Below the pieces are notes generated by a model. It searched no databases and had not been told where the DNA came from. It saw nothing but the letters and a program-made list of their open reading frames with translations. From an uncultured Oscillospiraceae bacterium (GTDB taxonomy: Bacteria; Bacillota; Clostridia; Oscillospirales; Oscillospiraceae): a stretch of 64,000 nt of DNA. The stretch spans positions 1-64,000 of the forward strand of contig CAMVMU010000004.1 of the NCBI GenBank assembly GCA_947168655.1, written 5' to 3'. Below, piece after piece: positions 18,127-25,809 of the stretch (the stretch's first letter is position 1; every line of letters begins with the position of its first letter). The translations under genes were made by a program, and so were the position numbers.

Positions 18127-19998
18127 ATGTCCGATCATTTTATCTTTGACCCCCGCGACGAACGTTATAAATCCCCCTTTGGGGCTGTTGTATGCGGCCA
18201 AAGCGTGCGCTTTACGCTGCGCCCTCTGTCCGGTGAGGGCTTCGTTGCCTGCTGCCTTGTGGCCAACTGCGAGTTTGCCGAAGAAACACGGACCTGTGAC
18301 CTGCACGATGAGGGCGGCCACGGCGACCTGTTTTCCGGCGTCTTTGCTGCCCCAGACCAACCCGAGCTGGTGTGGTACGCCTTCCGCTTTACCCGTGCCG
18401 ACGGCTCAACCGTCTATTTCGGCCGGGGAGGCTACTGCGACTTTGAACGCCTGCAGCGCTGGCAGCTGACGGTTTATGACGGCAAATTTGAGACGCCCCA
18501 ATGGTTTGGCCGCGGCGTGACTTACCAGATTTTCCCAGATCGGTTTTGCCGCCTCTCCGTGCCTGATCCCACCGGCATGGTGGGGGATCGCATCGTGCAC
18601 CAGGATTGGAACGAGCAGCCTGTCTATCGTCCCGATGAAAACGGACAGATCACCAATCGGGATTTCTTTGGCGGAAGCCTGCAGGGAATCATTTCCAAGT
18701 TGGACTATCTGGCAAATTTGTCTGTTACCACGCTATATCTTTGCCCTATCTTTGAGGCCGACTCCAACCACCGCTACAATACGGCGGATTATATGGCCAT
18801 TGACCCCATGCTTGGAACAGAAGAGGATTTTATCACACTGTGCCGGGAGGCTCACAATCGCGGCATGCGGGTGATGCTGGACGGCGTATTCAATCATACC
18901 GGCTCCAACAGCCGCTACTTCAACGCGCAGGGTTACTATCCTCAACTGGGAGCGGCTCAGAGCACGGCGTCCATCTACTATCCCTGGTACACCTTTCACC
19001 AGTGGCCCCATGAGTACGACGCCTGGTGGGGGGTACAGACGCTGCCCGCCGTAAATGAGAGCAACCCAGATTATCGTCAATTTATCATTTCCGGCGAGGA
19101 TAGTGTGATCCGCCATTGGATGCGTCGGGGTGCCGACGCCTGGCGGCTGGACGTGGCCGATGAACTGCCCGATGACTTTATTGCCGAGATCCGCCAAACC
19201 ATGTCGGAGGAAAACCCTGACAGCTTCCTGTTGGGCGAGGTCTGGGAGGACGGCAGCAACAAGGTGGCCTATTCCCGCCGGCGCCGCTATCTGCTGGGCG
19301 GTGAAACCAACGGCCTCATGAACTACCCTTTCCGCAGCGCGGCGCTGAATTGGGTCACCGGCGGCGATGCCGCCGATTTCCGGGACGCCATGGAAACGCT
19401 GCGTGAAAACTATCCTCCCGCCGCCTTCTATTCTGCGCTGAATATCCTGGGGACCCACGACACGGTGCGTGTCCTGACGCTGTTGGGCGTCGCGCAGGGC
19501 GCCGAGACGGATACCAAAGGCCAGCGGGCATCCTACCGTCTCGGCCCAGCCGAGCGCATCCGCGGTACTATGCGCCTGCGTCTGGCGGTCTTGTTGCTCT
19601 ATGCCTTTCCCGGCTCGCCTACGATATATTACGGAGATGAAGCCGGCATGGAGGGTTTTGAGGACCCGCTGAACCGGGGGACTTACCCCTGGGGCAGTGA
19701 GGATAGCACCATTCTGAAGTATTACCGCAGGCTGGGTGTTCTTCGAAAGGAGCGGATCTCCCTGCAGCGCGGCGCAATTTCCTACCTCTACGCAAAGGGC
19801 GGCGGCCTGGTCTTTCGCCGGGAGATCGACGATGAGCAGACGCTGATTGTCCTCAACGCAGGAGAGGATCCCCTGGAGCTGATGCTGCCGTGGCCCGGGA
19901 CTATGGCTGCCGATGCGCTGACCGGACAACAGTTCTTTGTCCGGGACGAGATGCTGCACCTGTCCGTGCCGCCTATTTCCGGATTGCTGCTTGTCTGA
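18127..19998 (+). CDS. GH13 alpha-glycosidase (neopullulanase/maltogenic amylase-like)
   Basis: QIFPDRF; VMLDGVFNHTG; DAWRLDVADEL; LLGEVWED; NILGTHDTVR; PTIYYGDEAGMEG. Confidence 0.95.
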   Translation: MSDHFIFDPRDERYKSPFGAVVCGQSVRFTLRPLSGEGFVACCLVANCEFAEETRTCDLHDEGGHGDLFSGVFAAPDQPELVWYAFRFTRADGSTVYFGRGGYCDFERLQRWQLTVYDGKFETPQWFGRGVTYQIFPDRFCRLSVPDPTGMVGDRIVHQDWNEQPVYRPDENGQITNRDFFGGSLQGIISKLDYLANLSVTTLYLCPIFEADSNHRYNTADYMAIDPMLGTEEDFITLCREAHNRGMRVMLDGVFNHTGSNSRYFNAQGYYPQLGAAQSTASIYYPWYTFHQWPHEYDAWWGVQTLPAVNESNPDYRQFIISGEDSVIRHWMRRGADAWRLDVADELPDDFIAEIRQTMSEENPDSFLLGEVWEDGSNKVAYSRRRRYLLGGETNGLMNYPFRSAALNWVTGGDAADFRDAMETLRENYPPAAFYSALNILGTHDTVRVLTLLGVAQGAETDTKGQRASYRLGPAERIRGTMRLRLAVLLLYAFPGSPTIYYGDEAGMEGFEDPLNRGTYPWGSEDSTILKYYRRLGVLRKERISLQRGAISYLYAKGGGLVFRREIDDEQTLIVLNAGEDPLELMLPWPGTMAADALTGQQFFVRDEMLHLSVPPISGLLLV

Positions 19999-20004
19999 TA
20001 TTTT

Positions 20005-20038
20005 CCCCTGTGTTTCACGTGAAACACAGGGGTTTTTT
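20005..20038. promoter_or_regulatory. parS site (exact TGTTTCACGTGAAACA, 20011-20026) embedded in 28-bp perfect palindrome plus T6 (possible intrinsic terminator)
   Basis: CCCCTGTGTTTCACGTGAAACACAGGGGTTTTTT. Confidence 0.93.
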
Positions 20039-20137
20039 CGTCTTCGCCCAAATTTTCTATTGATTGATCCCCAGTTTGTGATATACTGTATTTAACATGA
20101 GAGATTATACCAATTTGCGGGACAGGAGGAACTCGGC

Positions 20138-20893
20138 GTGGCCAAAATCGTAGCGATTGTCAATCAGAAAGGCGGCGTGGGAAAAACCACCACCTGCGTC
20201 AACCTGACCGCCGCGTTGAAGCAGGCCGGCAAGCGGGTACTGCTGTGCGATTTTGATCCCCAGGCCAACGCCACCTCCGGCATGGGGGTGGACAAGTCCG
20301 TGTCCAATGGCGTTTACGATGTGCTGATCAACGGAAAAGACGTACATACCGCCATTGTTTCCACCCGCTACGGCGACGTTCTGCCCTCCAGCAAAGCACT
20401 GGCCGGAGCCGGTATCGAGATGATTGAGATGGAGAACCGCCAATTCTTGTTGAAAAACGCGCTGGATCAGGTGCGCGGCGATTATGATTTCATTTTTATC
20501 GACTGCCCGCCTTCCCTGGAACTGCTGACCCTCAACGCGTTGTGCGCCGCAGACTCGCTGCTGGTGCCGGTACAGGGCGAATACTACGCTCTGGAGGGCC
20601 TCAGTGACCTGATGAACACCGTGCGCATCGTTCGCAGAGGCATGAATCCCAATTTGGGCATGGAAGGCGTGCTGCTGACCATGTTCGACGGGCGCACCAA
20701 TCTGGCCATCCAGGTAGCACAGGAGGTCAAGCGGTTTTTCCCGGGCAAGGTCTATTCTACCGTGGTACCCCGGAACGTCCGCCTCAGCGAGGCCCCCAGC
20801 CACGGTAAGCCCATCACGGCATACGACCGAACCTGCCGCGGCGCCGAGGCCTATACGGCGCTGGCAGCGGAGTTTTTAAAGAAGAATTCCTGA
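20138..20893 (+). CDS. soj: ParA family chromosome partitioning ATPase (Soj)
   Basis: MAKIVAIVNQKGGVGKTTTCVNLTAAL; DFDPQANATSG; FIDCPPSLELLTLNAL. Confidence 0.97.
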   Translation: MAKIVAIVNQKGGVGKTTTCVNLTAALKQAGKRVLLCDFDPQANATSGMGVDKSVSNGVYDVLINGKDVHTAIVSTRYGDVLPSSKALAGAGIEMIEMENRQFLLKNALDQVRGDYDFIFIDCPPSLELLTLNALCAADSLLVPVQGEYYALEGLSDLMNTVRIVRRGMNPNLGMEGVLLTMFDGRTNLAIQVAQEVKRFFPGKVYSTVVPRNVRLSEAPSHGKPITAYDRTCRGAEAYTALAAEFLKKNS

Positions 20894-21792: not shown

Positions 21793-21808
21793 CGTTTCAC
21801 GTGAAACA
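21793..21808. promoter_or_regulatory. Second parS-like site, 15/16 match, between parB and serS
   Basis: CGTTTCACGTGAAACA (consensus TGTTTCACGTGAAACA). Confidence 0.9.
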
Positions 21809-25564: not shown

Positions 25565-25809
25565 AACGATCCGCGAGGACGGGACAGGAGTAGCTCCGCA
25601 CCACCGCACACAGAGAGGCGCGCCCTTGGCTGCAAGCGCGCTGCGGAAACGGAGGGAAGACAGTCCCCGAGCGGGGGTGGCAACACCCACGGCACGCTCC
25701 CCGTACCCATGGAGCGCGAAAGGGTCCGCCCCGGCGGACTGAATTTGGGTGGCACCACGAAGCGTAAGTCCTGCGCTCTCGTCCCAAACGGGGGACGGGA
25801 GCGTTTTTT
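25565..25809 (+). ncRNA. T-box riboswitch leader upstream of hisS-aspS
   Basis: Stem I with AGTA motif (aggagtag) opposite GGAAGACA; T-box motif TTTGGGTGGCACCACGA pairing with TCCCAAA; terminator CGCTCTCGTCCC-loop-GGGACGGGAGCG-T6. Confidence 0.93.

Follow-up and report, generated by a model that had tools for sequence, protein, structure and literature searches.

A parS site within a predicted intrinsic terminator hairpin upstream of soj-spo0J in Oscillospiraceae

Results

The parS palindrome between GH13 and soj

The window, a stretch of 64,000 nucleotides from an uncultured Oscillospiraceae bacterium, carries a gene of the GH13 alpha-amylase family followed on the same strand by soj and spo0J. 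The features of this locus are as follows.

18127..19998, + strand: GH13 alpha-amylase-family gene (Alpha-amylase PF00128, Malt_amylase_C PF16657)
20005-20032, + strand: 28-bp perfect palindrome CCCCTGTGTTTCACGTGAAACACAGGGG, a 12-bp stem with ACGT loop, the arms of which covary in relatives
20011-20026, no strand: exact parS TGTTTCACGTGAAACA, by motif match, kept in relatives while the arms vary
20033-20038, + strand: T6 run, U-tract of the predicted terminator, read from the sequence; relatives have a T-rich tail on the same side
20060..20087, + strand: predicted soj promoter TTGATT-16-TATACT with a TG before the -10 (motif prediction)
20138..20893, + strand: soj (parA), AAA_31 PF13614
20909..21778, + strand: spo0J (parB), with ParB_N, HTH_ParB and ParB_C domains
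21793-21808, no strand: second parS CGTTTCACGTGAAACA with 1 mismatch, between parB and serS, without arms and without T-run

The palindrome begins after a gap of 6 nt behind the GH13 stop codon TGA (19996-19998), and the GTG start codon of soj at 20138 is located 105 nt past its end, which puts parS at approximately 110 bp upstream of soj. An earlier, sequence-only reading of this DNA had reported an exact parS core, its extension into a 28-bp perfect palindrome and a TTTTTT tail at 20005-20038, all of which were found as described. Its placement of the element behind the GH13 stop codon and about 100 nt upstream of soj holds as well.

For the parS 16-mer with up to three mismatches, 0.12 occurrences are expected in the window and two are found. 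The exact match to the core, the adjoining parAB genes and the canonical ParB domains that are encoded there are all features of a chromosomal parS. Elsewhere in this genome (1.7 Mb, 76% complete), the other parS sites are the near-perfect copy at 21793-21808 and one doubtful site with two mismatches, and no further GTTTC-N4-GAAAC occurs in these 1.7 Mb. Having neither arms nor T-run, the copy between parB and serS serves as a built-in control. Throughout the window genome and its relatives there are mostly about 2-4 parS-like sites per genome, nearly all at the soj-spo0J locus. Several relatives have an additional, armless parS between the terminator and the promoter, closer to a point from which ParB could influence the promoter.

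The textbook terminator fold that had been proposed for the RNA is borne out by folding: the + strand transcript of the palindrome reaches -21.4 kcal/mol (z -6.4), which none of 200 shuffles equals, and the stable, GC-containing stem-loop is directly followed by U6. This T-run follows the stem on the + strand only, the strand that also carries the gene immediately upstream, GH13. Within 14 kb, the parS hairpin is one of the two terminator-like sites with the longest stems. Searching Rfam with the hairpin returned no family at gathering score; the best match, NsiR1, scored 23.7 bits where 39 are needed and looks like generic hairpin similarity. A further strong terminator-like hairpin with a T-run, unrelated to parS, is present at 25773-25804 of the window. 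Downstream of the T-run, the TTGA and TATACT of the predicted soj promoter are invariant across an alignment of 10 relatives.

Arms and T-run in relatives

We fetched 80 Oscillospiraceae parB loci; with the window, 77 have a parS in the gap that separates soj from the gene upstream, and a locus was called fused when at least one of its sites had an arm score of 5 or more. By this measure the parS upstream of soj carries arms in 47 of the 77 loci. The fused element also occurs in a relative that has been cultured, Oscillibacter valericigenes (L048). Counted per site, 50 of 118 are armed, where re-dealing the right arms (permutation) gives a mean of 1.9 and a maximum of 9. The inner arms of the 47 fused loci comprise 40 distinct 6-nt sequences. 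At least five T within 10 nt after the arm are present on the soj side in 40 of the 47, against a mirror-image A-run on the opposite side in four. Among 66 parS copies between parB and serS, only four reach an arm score of at least 5, and none scores as high as 6. As such, the conservation of arms and T-run that the sequence-only reading had named as a check is found in relatives, with compensatory changes, and the second parS in these genomes has neither, leaving the proposed dual identity as parS and intrinsic terminator well supported by sequence comparison. A clear T-run is absent in 7 of the 47 hairpins (e.g. L040, L050 and L051), so that the arms may act otherwise in one side clade. In that clade (L040:1979, L050:1798, L051:69 and L044:954), perfect arms of 9-13 bp surround parS with a T-run on neither side.

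Covariation was scored in a gap-free alignment of the 47 hairpins. Changes on both sides occur at all seven arm pairs; 99.1% of the cells are paired, a percentage that is biased upward since the rows were picked for having arms. Cells with double changes number 153 versus 49.5 in shuffled alignments, and the covariation score is 0.648 versus 0.129 shuffled, dropping to 0.10-0.17 on sliding by 1-3 columns. The variety of pair types, together with the unselected arm permutation, is stronger evidence than the percentage paired. Wobble pairs in the arms are too few to tell selection on RNA from selection on DNA. As a control, 37 parB-serS copies are 67.8% paired versus 65.7% shuffled, with a score of 0.119 versus 0.103, and these 37 show no arm covariation clearly above shuffles. 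Judged across these loci, the arms are evidently selected for pairing.

The parS core and loop

In the alignment of the relatives' hairpins the parS core is near-invariant, whereas the arms are variable. The loop of a terminator can drift freely; here, 102 of the 115 GTTTC-N4-GAAAC sites upstream of soj have a central ACGT, and the remainder have ACAT or ATGT, each one change away, apart from a single TTTT in L059. By this comparison the loop is under selection for parS identity. Furthermore, four loci (L008, L009, L064 and L080) have an ACAT or ATGT centre at all of the sites found, which takes in the terminator copy of those that possess one; so concerted a change across a genome's parS copies arose in 2 of 20000 permutations. 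Such a pattern would be expected of terminator copies that function as parS and track their ParB, and the shift suggests a ParB of changed specificity or tolerance. A change of CACGTG to CACATG or CATGTG at every site found was also seen in L010, G313 and G336. In the gap between GH13 and soj, L059 has the terminator GGGCGGGCCTGTTTCttttGAAACAGGCCCGCCC, in which a parS-like stem is kept around the TTTT loop; it is apparently a former parS-terminator that lost its parS and retained the termination hairpin.

Fused and separate terminators

Upstream genes were placed by tblastn with the GH13 protein, because long antisense ORFs make longest-ORF calling of the upstream gene's orientation unreliable. 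Among loci in which GH13 is the immediate upstream gene, 3 of the 37 fused ones also have a separate terminator-like hairpin, compared with 15 of the 23 non-fused ones (Fisher 4e-6, with kinship left uncorrected; the loci are related, and simple tests thus overstate significance). The 3 of 37 is the raw figure and includes L013, which together with L035, L036, L041 and L079 was scored as 'separate' or 'none' although it has arms; on reading, these five were counted as fused since an A-T extension of the arms had absorbed the T-run. L046 and L049 have the separate hairpin flanked on either side by a plain parS. That fused and separate terminators are nearly exclusive implies that a terminator is needed at this position, and that a parS hairpin meets the need where present.

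In relatives the hairpin usually starts a few nt past the upstream stop codon, also when that gene is not GH13. Fused sites are found behind PBP2 (L020, L073) and an Indigoidine_A-like gene (L083), and the methyltransferase upstream in L050 is followed by arms with no clear T-run; across these loci, fusion is not tied to GH13. Extra parS-terminators occur past the next upstream gene, behind a nickel-insertion-like gene (L034:980) and an AAA-domain gene (L050:708). Half-sites are used as well: the right half of parS in L076 (identical in G055) pairs with a downstream copy as terminator arm, and G015, G268 and G310 have a half-parS as terminator arms, where the G015-type GGAGTGTTTCAC pairs with GTGAAACACTCC across an extra half-site.

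Distribution

Fusion with a T-rich tail is present in at least 24 of the 29 listed genomes of the window's genus; the exceptions include G313, the arms of which have wobble pairs (it would be the 25th), and G332, which shows only the parB-serS copy. On a quick tree of ParA and ParB for the 77 loci, the fused state changes at least 15 times. Fusion is, on that tree, gained or lost repeatedly, which means that it is not essential. Within the family it was seen in a minority of the genera read by eye (e.g. G020, G049, G051, G059 and G060). A survey of the class found 9 of 49 sites extended versus 1.7 expected, three of them with at least three GC pairs (G096, G101 and G125), and a survey of the order found a few other cases (G286, G206). 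Over the genomes surveyed, fusion is a lineage feature with scattered parallels, and rare outside the Oscillospiraceae.

Discussion

So how would one stretch of DNA serve both as a centromere site and as a terminator? In the double-stranded DNA, the 16 bp at the centre would be parS, the loading site of ParB. Transcribed by RNA polymerase leaving GH13, the palindrome would fold into a hairpin with a 12-bp stem and U6 behind it, and the transcript would end there; about 20 nt downstream, soj-spo0J would be transcribed anew from a promoter of its own. Termination combined with a separate soj promoter would keep upstream transcription out of the segregation operon. We consider it very probable that this is one DNA element used by two machineries, a ParB-loading parS as DNA and, as RNA, a terminator that ends the upstream transcript and thereby insulates soj-spo0J. 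That the same bases are under two constraints, ParB nucleation and intrinsic termination, appears well supported; the actual termination, the actual loading of ParB and the benefit of insulation are what we infer from sequence.

Why the two should share their bases is a separate matter. The parS palindrome already amounts to a stem of 6 bp and a loop of 4 nt, due to which terminators would readily evolve on it in a crowded intergenic region, and both functions could coexist without any benefit from their overlap. This account leaves the mechanism as described above and disputes only the reason for it. The repeated switches between fused and separate states on the tree are consistent with it, as are the use of half-parS as stem arms (L076; G015, G268, G310) and the terminator of L059, where a parS-like stem outlived the parS loop. 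We hold it to be somewhat likelier true than false.

Alternatively, the overlap may itself be functional, the sequence-only reading having already suggested that ParB loading could interact with termination into soj-spo0J, with ParB at parS forming a roadblock or altering the hairpin, such that read-through into soj-spo0J or the 3' end of GH13 responds to the level of ParB or CTP. The conservation of a shared binding site and terminator stem within the genus, and the recurrence of fusion on the tree, are in line with such coupling. There is a precedent for repression of neighbours as well, since ParB at parS3 and parS4 of P. aeruginosa represses the adjacent genes (PMC7022226). However, many relatives keep a terminator and a parS apart at the same place, which means that the overlap is not required, and we regard coupling as rather unlikely. 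It is equally doubtful that parS is a ParB-responsive terminator through which assembly of the segregation complex feeds back on the expression of soj-spo0J, or of PBP2 or GH13 upstream, and vice versa; if it were, the nucleation site itself would limit transcription through the nucleation site.

Could the arms instead be a feature of the DNA, such as a cruciform or an enlarged recognition site for ParB, rather than part of a terminator? Their perfect symmetry and the few hairpin parS without a T-run would fit. Yet the arm sequences differ between genomes, which speaks against sequence recognition, and the other parS sites of the same genomes are armless. Moreover, the T-runs are one-sided (40 versus 4), and the hairpins stand beside the upstream stop codon, where they replace a separate terminator. 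A pure DNA role of the arms is for these reasons very improbable. Chance extension of the parS palindrome is refuted, given that random arms of the flanks' composition reach a core extension score of 6 or more with a probability of about 0.001 per site, that 47 of 77 relatives have arms of differing sequence, and that these arms covary.

Both parS and intrinsic terminators are well known individually. Like the chromosomal parS of Bacillota (TGTTTCACGTGAAACA), the present site has the exact core, lies beside soj-spo0J and adjoins a gene for a ParB with ParB_N, HTH and C-terminal domains; unlike those, which are described as ParB-binding DNA, it has a T-run and arms of which the pairing, though not the sequence, is conserved. 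In common with intrinsic terminators it has a GC-rich 12-bp stem, a 4-nt loop and U6, situated 6 nt past a stop codon, but here parS dictates the sequence of its loop and of the inner half of its stem. We found no report of a parS inside a terminator in the open-access literature, the main survey of parS (Livny et al. 2007) being outside that coverage, and priority for describing the overlap is therefore uncertain.

A centromere site and a predicted terminator that share their bases are a genus-wide, recurrent arrangement in the lineage described here. Since these genomes mostly have about 2-4 parS-like sites, almost all of them beside soj-spo0J, much of the centromere would lie inside a terminator, which offers a natural test of the mutual effects between transcription and ParB loading. 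In practical terms, prediction of parS and prediction of terminators usually ignore each other.

The closest parallel is found in the inverted repeats of DNA uptake sequences (DUS/USS), proposed as terminators in Neisseria and Pasteurellaceae by Ambur et al. 2007, as cited in PMC2346458. According to that citing account, there too a DNA-recognition motif forms the stem of a terminator, but two inverted copies are needed and these serve DNA uptake. In the parS-terminator, by contrast, a single palindromic centromere site would suffice, and it belongs to chromosome segregation and to one locus per genome.
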